This document shows positions 11,142 to 55,225 of a stretch of 64,000 nt of DNA, one piece after another. The stretch is from the NCBI GenBank assembly GCA_022844125.1, contig JALHMI010000005.1, positions 273,768 through 337,767 on the forward strand. Reading direction: 5' to 3'. Each line of letters begins with the position of its first letter. Position 1 is the first letter of the stretch. Made by a program: the position numbers and the translations under genes. The stretch comes from Pirellulales bacterium (GTDB lineage: Bacteria > Planctomycetota > Planctomycetia > Pirellulales > PALSA-1355). The notes under the pieces were generated by a model. That model saw only the letters and a program-made list of their open reading frames with translations, did no database searches and was not told where the DNA came from.

Positions 11142-11981
11142 TTACTTCGGGTCGTGCGTATCAACGAACTCCACCAGCGATTCGACATATTCCGCGGGCA
11201 TGTACCCCGCCATGATCGCGGTGAGATGCGACTTGCCCGGCAGCACCACCGCACGGAAGTCGCGCAGCTCCCGCTGCATGCGGTGCGTCTTGGCGTTCGG
11301 CTGATCGAACTCGCCATTGATGGCCAGCACCGGAATCGTGATCGTCGCCAGGTCGATCGTCCCTCGTTCGGCCGGATTCCAGGGATACTTCCGCACCGCG
11401 GCCAGGGCTTCATTATCCCGGTCGGGATTGCCACCCAGCGTCTTGGTCGCCTCGGCCTCCTGCGGGTCGACACCCTGTTTATCCTCAGGCACTTCAGCGC
11501 GATACTTCTCGTCGACTTCGGGCACGCCGGCCCCGCCATACGATGCCGTGATGAAGCGCTCCGGATGTTTGGCCAATAGCTGGGTCACGATAAACCCGCC
11601 CATCGAGTACCCGTGCACGTGGGCCTGTTCGATCTTCAGGTGATCCATCAATTCGATCACGTCTTCGGCCATCTGCGGGCCGTACTTTGCCGGATCGTGC
11701 GGCTTCTCGCTCTTGCCGTGTCCGCGGCAGTCGATGGCCACGACGCGGTGCTTCTTGGCCAACCGCTCGGCAATGCCGTTGGCAAACCAGTTGCCGTGCG
11801 CGGTGCCGGTGTAGCCGTGAATGAGCACGACCGGCGTGCCGCTATCTCCGAGAGTCAGGTAGTGGATCTTGACGCCGTCCGAGGCCGTGAACGTACCGTC
11901 CTGCGGTTCGGCAGCCAGCGACATCGTTGCCGCCATCAGAACGAAAAGCCCAGCGCGAGCCGCCGTAGCAAAGAGTCGCAT
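11142..11981 (-). CDS. Secreted alpha/beta hydrolase
   Basis: A 279-residue exported serine hydrolase. A signal peptide covers residues 1-23 (ends ...SLAAEP). The fold shows the oxyanion strand LIHGYTGT, 'DCRGHGKSEKP', the nucleophile elbow HGYSMGG, and a late GKSHLTA with the catalytic His; the acid is probably in NGEFDQP. It is related to epoxide-hydrolase/esterase branches; the substrate is unknown. The start is the ATG before the signal peptide rather than one 31 codons upstream. First gene of the four-gene leftward operon. Confidence 0.87.
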   Translation of the reverse strand: MRLFATAARAGLFVLMAATMSLAAEPQDGTFTASDGVKIHYLTLGDSGTPVVLIHGYTGTAHGNWFANGIAERLAKKHRVVAIDCRGHGKSEKPHDPAKYGPQMAEDVIELMDHLKIEQAHVHGYSMGGFIVTQLLAKHPERFITASYGGAGVPEVDEKYRAEVPEDKQGVDPQEAEATKTLGGNPDRDNEALAAVRKYPWNPAERGTIDLATITIPVLAINGEFDQPNAKTHRMQRELRDFRAVVLPGKSHLTAIMAGYMPAEYVESLVEFVDTHDPK

Positions 11982-44208: not shown

Positions 44209-44283
44209 CGGGGCGTGGCGCAGCCTGGCTAGCGCGCTTGACTGGGGGTCAAGAGGTCGCAGGTTCAAATCCTGTCGCCCCGA
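44209..44283 (+). tRNA. tRNA-Pro(GGG)
   Basis: A full cloverleaf: acceptor CGGGGCG/CGCCCCG (44209-44215, 44276-44282), D stem GCGC/GCGC, anticodon stem CTTGA/TCAAG with loop CTGGGGG and anticodon GGG at 44244-44246, T arm GCAGG-TTCAAAT-CCTGT, discriminator A at 44283. CCA is not encoded. An integrase follows, so the 3' end is probably the left attachment site of the prophage. Confidence 0.96.
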
Positions 44284-44346
44284 CTGGACTTAGGAGGATT
44301 GGCGTATACGATTGCAGGGAATAATGCAGGCAATCGGAGATACGCC

Positions 44347-45330
44347 GTGGGACGCAATGCAAAACCTTGGTTTCGTAAAGCAACCGGTTGGTGGTACGTA
44401 GAAGTCGCTGGGAAGCAGCACAAGCTCGCCCAGACGAAGAAGGAAGCCACCGACGCCTTCCATGAATTGATGACGAACCGAGAGGACCTCCAGCCTCACA
44501 GGTACGTCAGGGATTTGCTCGACGAGTTTCTTGAGTGGTGCGAGAAGAACCGCTCGGAAGCGACGTACGACTGGTACACGCATTTCCTCTCCGGCTTTTC
44601 TGCCACGATCAAGAAGAAGTTTCCCGTATCGAAGCTTCAGCCCCTGCACGTGACGAAGTGGTCTCAGAACGCCTACGAGGGCAACACGACCCGCAACCGG
44701 GCAATCACCGCCGTCAGCCGTGCCTTGAGCTGGGCAGTGAAGCAGGGCCACATCCGCAGGAACCCCATCGCCGGCATCGAAAAGCCAGCTATGGCCCGCA
44801 GGGAGCTTGTCATCGACGAGCAGCAGTTCGAGCTGATCCTGAGCAAGACCGACGACCAGCAGTTCAAGGACTACCTGAACTTCATTTGGGAGACCGGCTG
44901 CCGCCCGCAGGAAGCCGCGAAGATTGCCGCCCGACACCTCGACGGGGATCGGCTTGTGCTCGCCCCGTCCGAATCAAAGGGAAAGAAAGTTTCCCGCGTG
45001 ATCTACCTGAACGCGAAGGCGTTGGAGATCGTGAATCGGCTGATGAAGAAATCGCCCGAAGGTCCAATCTTCTTGAACACGCAGGGACGACCTTGGAATA
45101 AGAACTCGGTCCGCTGTCGATTCCGCAACATGCACGTCGGCATCGAAGGATTGTGTGCGTACACGTTCCGCCACACCTGGTGCAATCGTGCCCTGGCCGC
45201 TGGCGTTGACAGTTTAACCGTCGGCTTACTAATGGGCCACGCTGATTTAGCCATGGTGGCCCGCCATTACGCTCACTTGTCAAAGAACCCTGACTTCCTC
45301 CGCGAACAGCTCACCAAGGTGTCCAGTTAG
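44347..45330 (+). CDS. Tyrosine-recombinase integrase
   Basis: A phage-type integrase. The catalytic residues are visible: Arg in TGCRPQEAAKI, Lys in SKGKKV, His/Arg in FRHTWCNRAL, His in GHADLAMV, and the nucleophile Tyr in ARHYAHLS. An N-terminal arm-binding part and a core-binding SAM-like domain (YVRDLLDEFLEWCEKN...) precede it. The GTG at 44347 has GGAG 7 bases before it; a TTG at 44299 is in frame but only one base after an AGGAGG, too close. It recombines at the tRNA-Pro. It is the main rightward gene, convergent with the excisionase gene (4-base overlap). Confidence 0.93.
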   Translation: MGRNAKPWFRKATGWWYVEVAGKQHKLAQTKKEATDAFHELMTNREDLQPHRYVRDLLDEFLEWCEKNRSEATYDWYTHFLSGFSATIKKKFPVSKLQPLHVTKWSQNAYEGNTTRNRAITAVSRALSWAVKQGHIRRNPIAGIEKPAMARRELVIDEQQFELILSKTDDQQFKDYLNFIWETGCRPQEAAKIAARHLDGDRLVLAPSESKGKKVSRVIYLNAKALEIVNRLMKKSPEGPIFLNTQGRPWNKNSVRCRFRNMHVGIEGLCAYTFRHTWCNRALAAGVDSLTVGLLMGHADLAMVARHYAHLSKNPDFLREQLTKVSS

Positions 45331-47517: not shown

Positions 47518-47671
47518 AAACAAACGGGGTAACGAAATAAAAAGCGTCAAGCTTTGCTGAACCGACCGCATCCTGCACATTGCTTCCAGATCGTTGCCGT
47601 TCGCTTCGGACCTATGAACACGAACGTGACAAACGATGAACCGATGTGGCAGACTTGCAATACGAACCAAC

Positions 47672-47984
47672 AGGTTGCTCGCGCGAGGAACCTAAAACGC
47701 TTCATAACTGTGTGGGTTATGAAATAGAAAGCGGCGTGGCCGCGTTATCACCCACGACGACTGCCGAGACCGTGACTCTCAGCAGGTCGATCGTGGATAG
47801 GCTTAAAGCAAAAAGGAGAGCGGGTGGCAGGAGCCCGCTCAGATCGCCAAAAGGCGAATAGATAGCAGCATCACGCTGCGAGGCGTTCCTGATCTACAGG
47901 AACGAATAGAAAGCGGCTGAGCCGCACATCACGCAGGACGCCGAAGGGAGCCTGTCGCCTTCAGCAATAGAGAGCGTGAATCAC
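47672..47984. other. Array of hairpins with repeated ATAGANAGC linkers
   Basis: About ten stem-loops are packed into 310 bases. Examples: 47701-47708/47716-47723 (TTCATAAC/GTTATGAA), 47731-47735/47739-47743, 47818-47824/47834-47840, 47844-47848/47853-47857, 47865-47869/47875-47879, 47885-47891/47897-47903, 47913-47917/47921-47925. ATAG recurs at 47724, 47797, 47858, 47906 and 47967, each directly after or within two bases of a 3' arm. Four copies read ATAGA(A/T/G)AGC and are followed by a short hairpin and ATCAC. The hairpin bases differ but remain paired (GCGGC/GCCGC, GCAGC/GCTGC), so structure is conserved between units. Noncoding; strand unknown; structured RNA or replication origin are both possible. 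Confidence 0.7.
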
Positions 47985-51292: not shown

Positions 51293-51412
51293 CGGAACGC
51301 CCCCAGTTGAAATGAAGTCACCCCGCTTTGTAGCTATCTCAGAGACCCAAAGCAACAACTGCCAAAAAAATGTTGGCTTCTCGTAACACTGTTCCGACCA
51401 CGACGATTAGTA

Positions 51413-51441
51413 AAAACCCCCTACCTTCCATGGCAGGGGGA
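51413..51441 (-). terminator. Rho-independent terminator on the minus strand
   Basis: On the minus strand CCCCCT (51441-51436) pairs with AGGGGG (51423-51418), with CC/GG pairs inside, then five T (51417-51413). It follows the 51465-51770 gene and separates it from the coiled-coil protein operon. Confidence 0.85.
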
Positions 51442-51464
51442 ACGCTCATCCATGAGCGGCAAAG

Positions 51465-51770
51465 CTAGTCCTTCGAGCGTTTCGGCTGGTGCTCGATCAT
51501 AAAATCGATCGCCTGCTGAATCGCATATTGAAGGACGAAGAGATCCATCAGCCGGAACACCGGCTTCTTTTCGAAGTCTCCATCCTTCTTGTAGCTCCGC
51601 GTCGCAGAGCAAGAGAAGCCGATCCGTGTTTCGCCGTTGTGCTGGTACTCGTTTTGCCAGACGGCAACTTCGATTCTTCCGCCCGGCGAGCCAGGCAGAT
51701 TCCAGCTTTGAAGGGGACGTTTCTTGCCTTCAGCTTCATCGAACACATCGGGTTCAAAATCGGTACTCAC
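51465..51770 (-). CDS. Small conserved mobile-element protein, function unknown
   Basis: A 101-residue protein: 'LPGSPGGRIEVAVWQNEYQHNGETRIGFSCSATRSYKKDGDFEKKPVFRLMDLFVLQYAIQQAIDFM'. Proteins with this 'g.i..avWqN......f.s..rsYk.....f......f...dl..l' layout are common in planctomycete genomes and mobile elements, and look like a small beta-barrel with a helix, possibly an OB-like single-strand-binding fold. The start is GTG with GAGGAG 7 bases upstream. That Shine-Dalgarno is buried in the closing stem of the leader at 51776-51842. Followed by a strong terminator. Confidence 0.7.
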   Translation of the reverse strand: MSTDFEPDVFDEAEGKKRPLQSWNLPGSPGGRIEVAVWQNEYQHNGETRIGFSCSATRSYKKDGDFEKKPVFRLMDLFVLQYAIQQAIDFMIEHQPKRSKD

Positions 51771-51775
51771 GTGAG

Positions 51776-51842
51776 GACTCCTCGGGGCTATGAAAGACCA
51801 GCTGGTGACTGAGGAACATCCTCAGTCGACCCGAGGCTAGTC
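51776..51842 (-). promoter_or_regulatory. Structured leader whose closing stem covers the Shine-Dalgarno
   Basis: On the minus strand GACT-AG-CCTCGGG (51842-51830) pairs with CCCGAGG-AGTC (51786-51776). The 3' strand holds GAGGAG, the ribosome site of the gene starting at 51770. Inside the stem is a perfect 9-bp hairpin (51827-51819 with 51815-51807, 3-base loop) and the palindrome ACCAGCTGGT. The layout is that of a translation-controlling RNA switch or thermosensor. Confidence 0.65.
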
Positions 51843-52173
51843 CCATGAACCCGCACGCGCCCATGAAATCCGATTGACAGAATCCGCTTCTATGTCGAAC
51901 GCCCACCGACGGGTGAAGACGGTTTCAAAACGAACAGAGGCCCCTTTCCTCTGCCTGTTCGTCTCATGGGTATGAAAACGTCGAGGTTCAGTCGGGGGCC
52001 AATGGTGCGCTGCACAGAGTTGTTATTGCCGGGTGCTTCGCCGTACAAGCTCCATCGCGGAGCCATCTGGTGAATGGTTTCAAACCAACCGCTTTCGCGA
52101 CGGAGGAGAACCATTTTGAGTCTTGAGCTGGCACAGTACACCGCTCTTGCGGGCCGGCCTCGGCAGCACGGCT
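51843..52173. other. Noncoding stretch with further hairpins
   Basis: No convincing gene. A long hairpin has arms ACGAACAG (51930-51937) and CTGTTCGT (51955-51962), with an inner AGG/CCT. Others are GCTCC/GGAGC at 52049-52063 and the palindrome TGGTTTCAAACCA at 52075-52087. This is the likely promoter and 5' leader of the 51770 gene. Confidence 0.5.
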
Positions 52174-52859: not shown

Positions 52860-53375
52860 ATGTCAGAATACCGCAACGAAGACCGGCCGCGCGAGTGGTT
52901 GAGCGAGGAAGAATTCAAAGCTCGCTACAAACGCGATGACTGGAAAGTGCTTCGGTCCCAAGCAATGAAACGCGACGGCTATGCCTGCACTGTGTGCGGC
53001 AAAGGCGGGAAGCTGGATGTCCACCACACGCCCGAAGCCTACGCGATGTTTGGCCATGAACGCCTTGAAGACCTGGTGACGCTCTGTAAAAAGCATCATC
53101 CAAAAGGACGCTACTCGAAATTCGAGATCAAGCAGGACCGTGAGGCCTATCTCGAATTAAAGATCGCTTGGACGATCATTGTGTTTCTCTGGCGATGGAC
53201 AGTGAAGGGACTGAAGCTAGGATGGCAAATCTCGATCATCCTTTGCTTTTTAGGCGTCTATTCCTTCATCTTCGTAGTTACTCTGCCAATGATGATCCTC
53301 ATCGCTATAAAGGCCACAAAAAAGTTCTTCACCGAGACCTTTTGGGAGATGATTGCTAAGGTCCTGCGATCTTAG
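52860..53375 (+). CDS. HNH endonuclease fused to a membrane-spanning tail
   Basis: A 171-residue protein. The HNH domain (residues ~28-85) reads 'RDGYACTVCGKGGKLDVHHTPEAYAMFGHERLEDLVTLCKKHHPK': zinc ligands C43/C46 and C79/H82 with the catalytic HH pair. After KFEIKQDREAYLELK come two hydrophobic helices, 'IAWTIIVFLW' and 'ISIILCFLGVYSFIFVVTLPMMILIAIKA'. An HNH nuclease with a membrane anchor is unusual; cutting DNA at the membrane, for example incoming phage DNA, is one idea. One of few rightward genes in the element. Its end overlaps the convergent 53372 gene by 4 bases. Confidence 0.8.
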   Translation: MSEYRNEDRPREWLSEEEFKARYKRDDWKVLRSQAMKRDGYACTVCGKGGKLDVHHTPEAYAMFGHERLEDLVTLCKKHHPKGRYSKFEIKQDREAYLELKIAWTIIVFLWRWTVKGLKLGWQISIILCFLGVYSFIFVVTLPMMILIAIKATKKFFTETFWEMIAKVLRS

Positions 53376-53797: not shown

Positions 53798-54175
53798 TCA
53801 GGCCCGCATGGCCTTTCTGCGGACAACGATCCGTGTGGCTTTCCAAAGTGGATAACCTTCGACGCAAAGCTTGTGAACCAATGCGTGACAGTCCTCGCAC
53901 AGCCAACACATATGTTGCAGGTTCTCACGTCCCAGTGTTTTATATGATCGATGATGCAGTGCCAGATGTTCAATGCTGCCACATGATTCGCAGCACTTCT
54001 TTCGTTTGCTCTCCCGTGCCATTCTCTCGCGGGTGGCTTTCCATTCAGGAGAATCTAAATACTCTCGCAGCGTCCGCATCCCGATGGATCGAAGAAATCG
54101 ACCAAGAGCCTCAACTTCGGACATCCCGAGCGTCTTGCCCTTTACGAGCGGCACACGCTTCATTCGTTCGGACAA
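53798..54175 (-). CDS. HNH endonuclease
   Basis: A ~125-residue HNH protein: 'LREYLDSPEWKATRERMARESKRKKCCESCGSIEHLALHHRSYKTLGRENLQHMCWLCEDCHALVH'. Zinc ligands CESC and CEDC, the HH pair and the final H of the beta-beta-alpha-metal site are present. Such small HNH proteins in phages often lie near terminase or replication genes. TTG at 54175 or ATG at 54163 may start it. In-frame basic sequence (RQRRIARRAKKFKA) continues upstream without a standard start codon, so the N-terminus is uncertain. Confidence 0.8.
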   Translation of the reverse strand: MSERMKRVPLVKGKTLGMSEVEALGRFLRSIGMRTLREYLDSPEWKATRERMARESKRKKCCESCGSIEHLALHHRSYKTLGRENLQHMCWLCEDCHALVHKLCVEGYPLWKATRIVVRRKAMRA

Positions 54176-54272
54176 GGCCTTGAACTTCTTTGCCCTCCGT
54201 GCGATTCGTCTTTGCCGGATCTGCGGTCGAGTGAGGTTTATAGAGTGAGGTGGGAACTACGATTGCTTTTGG

Positions 54273-54880
54273 CGGAGGAGAAGACAGGAAGTCCCTCCGT
54301 CAGTGAAGACGGTTGAAATTCAATTCAACAGAGCGAAAGCGACAGTTTGAAGGACTTCTTGCCTTCGGCGTATGGAGCCAGACAATCAATTCAGCTTTTC
54401 GAGCTTGCTGCTGAATAAGTCTCCCTTGCGGGACAGGACGGGGAGAAGAGAAGTTGCAAGAGGTCGCCCAGGTCTGCCTTAACTACTTCTAGCCTCCTTT
54501 CGGAGTACCGACCATTTCTCTTCTTCTGGGATCTTCAGAGTGCTCAGTGCTGGTGGCAAGGTTTGACTTGCAGAGAACTGGTAACGTCATCAGTTCTACA
54601 ATCTACGCCCCGACCGTCGATGGCAAAACTTTGTCGGCTCACAGACCGCCACACCAGCAACGAACACTCTGTTTTGTCGCCTTACCTACTGCCCCAACGG
54701 ATTCTCACCGCACGGAGACAGGGTATCGGCACTCTGTTGAGAAGGAACTGATCAAGGCCCGCGACCGAAATAATCCAGAAGGACTTTGACTGGCTTCGAT
54801 TCACGGTGTGTTGTATTCTGTGTCCGTGATGTAGCAATCGCACTCTGCCTGAGATTCCACAAGAATCAAGGGCAGTTTTC
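54273..54880 (+). ncRNA. Putative large structured noncoding RNA
   Basis: About 600 bases without a credible gene but with many perfect helices: CGGAGG/CCTCCG (54273-54278/54294-54299), GTTGAA/TTCAAC (54312-54317/54324-54329), GAAGG/CCTTC, ATTCAGC/GCTGAAT (54389-54395/54410-54416), TCCC/GGGA, CTCC-TTTC-GGAG, a 9-bp long-range helix AGAAGAGAA/TTCTCTTCT (54444-54452/54516-54524), and a multibranch unit closed by GCTGGTG/CACCAGC (54549-54555/54652-54658) with three hairpins inside (GCAAG/CTTGC, AGAACTG/CAGTTCT, CCGAC/GTCGG). It ends with a terminator-like hairpin whose T-run fits the plus strand. Size and prophage setting recall GOLLD and ROOL RNAs, but no homology is claimed. Confidence 0.5.
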
Positions 54881-54883
54881 TTA
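54845..54883 (+). terminator. Terminator-like hairpin at the end of the structured region
   Basis: CTGCC and GATTC (54845-54849, 54853-54857) pair with GAATC and GGCAG (54863-54867, 54871-54875), then TTTTCTT. It lies 15 bases before the ATG of the rightward gene at 54899, so it either ends the structured RNA or attenuates that gene. Confidence 0.6.
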
Positions 54884-54898
54884 TGGGAGAATGCCGAG

Positions 54899-55225
54899 AT
54901 GGAAGAATCATTTGAAGGTGCTGTGAAACAAGCGTTCATAGAGGCAAACGTTGGCCGTGATTGCGACTTTGAGTTTGAGATCGGCTCAGTTGCCGTCGGC
55001 ACCGTGAAGATCGCTCAATGCATAGTTAGGTACGTGAAGGGCAATGAGTACCTGCGTCTCGACATTCTGTTTAGAAGACTGAATGAGTACGGGGAGATAA
55101 AGCTTATTGAGTACCGAGGACGCGACGATCGAGACGTACCTCAAATTATCGTTGAGTACAGATTCCATGACGAACCTCATCAGCTTATTTACGTTTTTCC
55201 CGATCCCACGGGTGAATCTGAATAG
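54899..55225 (+). CDS. Hypothetical protein on the minority strand
   Basis: A 108-residue acidic protein, MEESFEGAVKQAFIEANVGRDCDFEFEIGSVAVGTVKIAQCIVRYV...IIVEYRFHDEPHQLIYVFPDP. It looks like a compact alpha/beta domain. It runs rightward, against the late operon, and directly follows the structured region and terminator-like hairpin. That position suits a moron gene or a regulator controlled by attenuation. No family recognised. Confidence 0.6.
   Translation: MEESFEGAVKQAFIEANVGRDCDFEFEIGSVAVGTVKIAQCIVRYVKGNEYLRLDILFRRLNEYGEIKLIEYRGRDDRDVPQIIVEYRFHDEPHQLIYVFPDPTGESE

Follow-up and report, generated by a model that had tools for sequence, protein, structure and literature searches.

A prophage of a Pirellulales bacterium contains a noncoding stretch that folds better than its shuffled versions, carries a terminator-like hairpin at its end and is followed by a small open reading frame (ORF). 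We propose that these elements belong to one plus-strand unit, set in a late region of minus-strand genes: a structured RNA, then a leaky terminator, then a small orphan ORF. To this reading we give somewhat less than an even chance. All positions refer to the window, the whole stretch of 64,000 nucleotides that was analysed.

Location and coding potential

The window is part of a host contig of 400 kb in a genome of 6.4 Mb, both of which contain the stretch. The prophage, of about 56 kb, is integrated at a tRNA-Pro gene (44209-44284). Its attL site (44236-44283, plus strand) is the 3′ end of this host gene, and a 48-bp copy (98%) located about 56.4 kb rightward defines the element. The integrase gene (44299-45330) follows attL, and most other prophage genes are located on the minus strand. 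The genes run portal, head protease, major capsid, tape measure, tail, holin, amidase, HNH and, further on, terminase large subunit and Prim-Pol. The structured gap is situated between the lysis genes (holin, amidase) and the HNH gene. The latter, which forms the left flank (53798-54175, minus strand), encodes a small HNH endonuclease of 125 aa (PHROGs 8060/119) with 34-37% identity to HNH proteins of Streptomyces phages. Between it and the terminase gene lie a further HNH gene and a number of ORFs without assignment. Of the two small HNH genes found close to the terminase gene, which are oppositely oriented, the one at 52860-53375 (plus strand) shows likeness to the HNH part of IscB only.

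According to codon statistics, with a model trained on the long ORFs of the prophage, no gene-free gap of the prophage is longer than the interval 54175-54899 (724 bp). The ORFs that it contains, 54547-54789 (+), 54563-54751 (+) and 54682-55002 (-), all score negative. The ORFs tested had no match in a PHROGs search, and a coding remnant was rejected for want of a family match among them. The gap is noncoding.

Predicted fold

Folding energies were compared with those of dinucleotide-shuffled controls and expressed as z. For the segment 54273-54883 the energy was -213.8 on the plus strand (z -3.3) and -212.0 on the minus strand (z -3.4); for 54244-54884 it was -228.4 (z -3.5) and -224.7 (z about -4.0), respectively. 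No shuffle reached the energy of the native fold of either segment, and both strands have equally low energies. Sliding windows of 150 nt stay mostly near zero, and the signal resides chiefly in closed units formed over long range. An earlier note on this DNA, made from the letters alone, had described about 600 bases of densely structured noncoding sequence. This description was borne out by the gene-free interval 54175-54899 and by energies below those of the shuffles, from which the native sequence differs by z about -3.3 to -4 on both strands. Folding no better than in dinucleotide-shuffled controls, which the note had named as a ground for refutation, is excluded.

On the plus strand, the minimum free energy of 54244-54884 (-228.4) and that of the centroid (-222.1) nearly coincide, and the ensemble diversity is below that of 59 of the 60 shuffles. 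The minus-strand ensemble is less defined (-224.7 versus -197.5). Among 142 windows of the prophage, the plus-strand ensemble ranks 8th in definition. By energy alone the region is not exceptional: several further noncoding gaps score similarly or better, both in this prophage and in related ones, where z goes down to -4.4. The region is a real, moderately unusual structured noncoding stretch.

The plus-strand fold comprises four domains and a long-range helix of 9 bp (54245-54253/54677-54685, p 0.91) that appears on this strand only. This helix would enclose two thirds of the RNA on the 5′ side and tie the presumed 5′ end to the interior. Domain 1 (54261-54387) has a closing helix 54261-54273/54377-54387, followed by the helix 54280-54294/54352-54366 and two small hairpins; its part 54273-54370 has z -2.8 on the plus strand and -5.1 on the minus strand. 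Domain 2 (54441-54527) consists of a 14-bp helix (54441-54454/54514-54527, p 0.97) enclosing inner hairpins, and its surroundings as a whole (54380-54535) have z about 0. The helices named earlier are real, among them a 9-bp helix at 54444-54452/54516-54524, which is exact and sits inside the 14-bp helix of domain 2.

Domain 3 (54536-54671), a closed multibranch unit, is the strongest part of the structure and exceeds chance. Its arms (54536-54555/54652-54671) measure 20 nt each, with Watson-Crick pairing at 17 of the 20 positions. Pairing at 17 or more positions was reached in a single one of 200 shuffles; elsewhere in the prophage it recurs once, in the likewise noncoding segment 95210-95332. 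The energy of the domain (z -4.2 on plus, -4.9 on minus) was matched by none of 200 shuffles. Of the three hairpins previously assigned to this closed unit, two stood firm (54556-54571 and 54574-54597, p 0.86-0.98), while the third is variable and weaker (p 0.63). Domain 4 (54711-54828) is a long interrupted hairpin (54711-54737/54803-54828, p 0.88-0.99). On its side of the region, 54680-54883, the folding signal is restricted to the plus strand (z -2.5, compared with -0.2 on minus). Domains 1 and 3 fold better on the minus strand partly because two A-C mismatches in each long helix become G-U there.

Transcription signals, strand and downstream ORF

At 54845-54884 the plus strand carries an intrinsic terminator, as the earlier note had recognized, with the hairpin CTGCCT..GATTC-CACAA-GAATC..GGGCAG (54845-54875) followed by TTTTCTTAT. 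With -14.5 kcal/mol it is the best of seven plus-strand sites in 56 kb. A simple terminator scan missed it, probably because of its internal loop. The best promoter candidate is weak and not convincing: a possible element TTATAGA (54238-54244) lies between two exact copies of GAGTGAGGT (54229-54237 and 54243-54251), and a promoter scan of 54229-54251 gave no consensus match; a good -35 hexamer is absent.

The plus strand is the likelier RNA strand, favoured by the terminator, the well-defined ensemble, the signal of domain 4, the helix 54245-54253/54677-54685 and the ORF past the terminator. The orientation against the late operon that had been suggested for the RNA agrees with this, the neighbouring late genes being on the minus strand.

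Fifteen bases past the terminator starts an orphan ORF of 108 aa (54899-55225, plus strand), preceded by the ribosome-binding-like sequence GGGAG (54885-54889). Its codon score of +14.3 indicates coding sequence. The best AlphaFold2 single-sequence model reached a pLDDT of 82, with only one of five models that good. The ORF probably encodes a real protein. Searches in Pfam, PHROGs, NCBIfam and PADLOC returned no meaningful match. No homologue was found in 392 genomes of the phylum, in phages, in plasmids or in viral and genome contigs, where the contig scans detect close relatives only. A nucleotidyltransferase-like fold was considered and rejected, as the Foldseek matches were too weak (best E 5e-3, TM 0.44). 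Between terminator and ORF there is no room for a promoter, so the ORF would depend on read-through, and this dependence would link it to the RNA.

Known RNA families and search for relatives

GOLLD and ROOL are large RNAs of prophages that are often encoded near tRNA islands (PMC12286853). GOLLD is a multi-domain noncoding RNA of hundreds of nucleotides found in phages and prophages and is upregulated during lysis (PMC12286853). ROOL is marked by a homo-octameric RNA cage, recognizable by cryo-EM (PMC12286853). The region resembles GOLLD in being prophage-borne, noncoding, hundreds of nucleotides long and predicted to fold into several domains; it resembles ROOL in being prophage-encoded and of similar length (574 model positions compared with about 640 nt). 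It differs from GOLLD in having no homologue that we could find and in lacking a phage tRNA island, a location that is frequent, not strict, for GOLLD; the only tRNA belongs to the host, namely the tRNA-Pro at attL, at a distance of 10 kb.

In an Rfam scan of the whole window that covered all families including ROOL, only the tRNA reached threshold, and over the structured stretch nothing sensible appeared at E up to 10. The GOLLD model (RF02032) had no match in the whole genome even at E 10, in a search whose controls gave weak matches in five of 14 genomes, none above the cut-off. The ROOL model (RF03087) likewise had no match in the whole genome, and because the controls of that search also gave none, its sensitivity is unproven. 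Membership in GOLLD or ROOL was rejected for lack of an Rfam match at any sensible threshold, and the kinship once suggested for the region is not supported. What survives of the idea of a large prophage RNA is a structured, noncoding, plus-strand region with a terminator. A HEARO or IscB-guide RNA, which would adjoin an IscB-type RuvC+HNH nuclease, was also considered and was rejected: the HNH neighbour has 125 aa and a sub-threshold IscB match, and Rfam gave no match.

Type III toxin-antitoxin (ToxIN-like) operons consist of a promoter, a noncoding RNA, a terminator and a small ORF expressed by read-through. The order proposed here is superficially the same, but 54200-55000 contains no tandem repeat family, and the 108-aa ORF has no ToxN/TenpN/CptN-like match in Pfam, PHROGs, NCBIfam or PADLOC.

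At the DNA level, the region matched only itself in its own genome, relatives showed short pieces at chance level, and a search of phages and plasmids gave no match. A covariance model of domain 3, built from the single sequence, recovered only the domain itself and its own reverse strand among the 392 phylum genomes and selected loci; the best other match (E 0.09 per genome) is at chance level for 392 genomes. In viral contigs, a DNA-pattern search yielded nine matches, none supported by the covariance model. Related phages were sought via TerL, portal, capsid, amidase, HNH and the 108-aa ORF, and none was close; four TerL relatives with 22-29% identity had no sequence similar to the region. 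As no homologue was found for the sequence, domain 3 or the 108-aa ORF, there is no covariation to consider.

Interpretation

With the late-gene neighbours on the minus strand, a plus-strand unit must be expressed separately. We envisage a moron-like insertion with the lysis genes on one side and the HNH/terminase genes on the other. A promoter near 54240 may drive transcription of a noncoding, structured RNA, about 640 nt long, with four helical domains and its 5′ end tied to about 54680. Transcription would stop mainly at the terminator 54845-54884, and read-through could yield a little mRNA for the 108-aa protein. The RNA would act through its folded shape, perhaps in trans, as the abundant product, with the protein as a partner or a passenger. 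In favour of such a unit are the largest gap of the prophage, an energy below all shuffles, the rare arms of domain 3 and the position of the best plus-strand terminator of the prophage exactly at the RNA 3′ end. Against it count minus-strand energies that are nearly as low, with domains 1 and 3 better there, the weak promoter, the other gaps with similar z, the 8th rank of the ensemble among 142 and the lack of a homologue and hence of covariation. A wider claim would be that phages possess a further class of large RNA with several domains (~640 nt), new and without kinship to GOLLD or ROOL, which a prophage of Planctomycetota expresses from a moron-like plus-strand unit together with a small protein as its partner; this we regard as doubtful.

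The same gap could be an ordinary noncoding stretch, a decayed gene or an insert beside homing-endonuclease genes, with chance structure and a normal terminator. Values of z from -3 to -4, which several further gaps here and in related prophages attain, the two HNH genes nearby and the lack of detected conservation are consistent with this, but domain 3 goes beyond chance and the tested ORFs show no remnant of a known protein, which makes it unlikely. Alternatively, the stretch might act in cis as a long, structured 5′ leader regulating the 108-aa ORF, with 54845-54884 as an attenuator whose 3′ arm can pair further upstream. The terminator precedes the start codon by about 15 bases, and in the fold of 54680-54883 CTGCCC (54688-54693) pairs with GGGCAG (54870-54875) of the terminator 3′ arm. 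Such a 6-base alternative pairing is, however, expected by chance in about one of seven cases, 640 nt is long for a leader and no riboswitch or leader of Rfam matches, so that we find a leader rather unlikely.

Inverted repeats could also act in the DNA itself, as a packaging (cos/pac) region. Lambda- and HK97-like phages have their cos between lysis and HNH/terminase genes, and the minus-strand order of tail, holin, amidase, gap, HNH and, further on, terminase large subunit places the gap accordingly; the equally strong folding of both strands would also fit. A packaging site nevertheless appears improbable to us, since it leaves the plus-strand terminator and the codon-positive ORF unexplained, a cos requires far less than 600 bases, the intervening HNH gene and unassigned ORFs separate the HNH gene 53798-54175 from the terminase gene, and we know of no cos sequence for this phage group. 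If the RNA instead belonged to the minus-strand late operon, as a segment upstream of the HNH gene, this would fit the z of -5.1 and -4.9 in domains 1 and 3 on that strand, where most of their mismatches become G-U. With no minus-strand terminator near the RNA end, a less defined ensemble and a domain 4 without signal on minus, such a minus-strand RNA is very improbable.

To our knowledge, few large structured phage RNAs have been described, none with a firm function. If the plus-strand unit is real, a further unrelated RNA from a poorly studied phylum would help to judge whether phages in general employ RNAs of this kind, a weight that the present case, a single sequence without relatives, cannot carry.

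Other structured gaps and elements

Several further noncoding gaps of the prophage fold strongly. The gap 47671-47983 has z -6.8 on plus and -8.2 on minus, stronger than 54175-54899, and contains an array of hairpins linked by the repeated motif AATAGAnAGC (about 47724, 47858, 47905 and 47965). Rfam and phage searches gave no match for it, and it occurs only once in the genome. For 51325-51935, z was -6.0 on plus and -5.1 on minus; the interval 51325-52173 comprises a 101-aa minus-strand ORF (51465-51770) and a noncoding gap of 404 bp, and a strong minus-strand terminator is located at about 51416. In pairwise tests among the noncoding gaps of the prophage, no shared sequence was significant except for one 54-nt inverted match, of 74%, between 51791-51843 and a segment of this prophage at a distance of 39 kb. 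Further right, in window coordinates extended rightward, a noncoding gap of 484 bp (94892-95374) has z -3.9 on minus. Inside it lies the prophage's only other such long-range inverted repeat besides that of domain 3, 95210-95332 (L023, about 11478-11600), with 18 of 20 pairs. The same genome harbours a second element, whose TerL (G000:C16:147598-148527, L029) is about 29% identical to that of the prophage.
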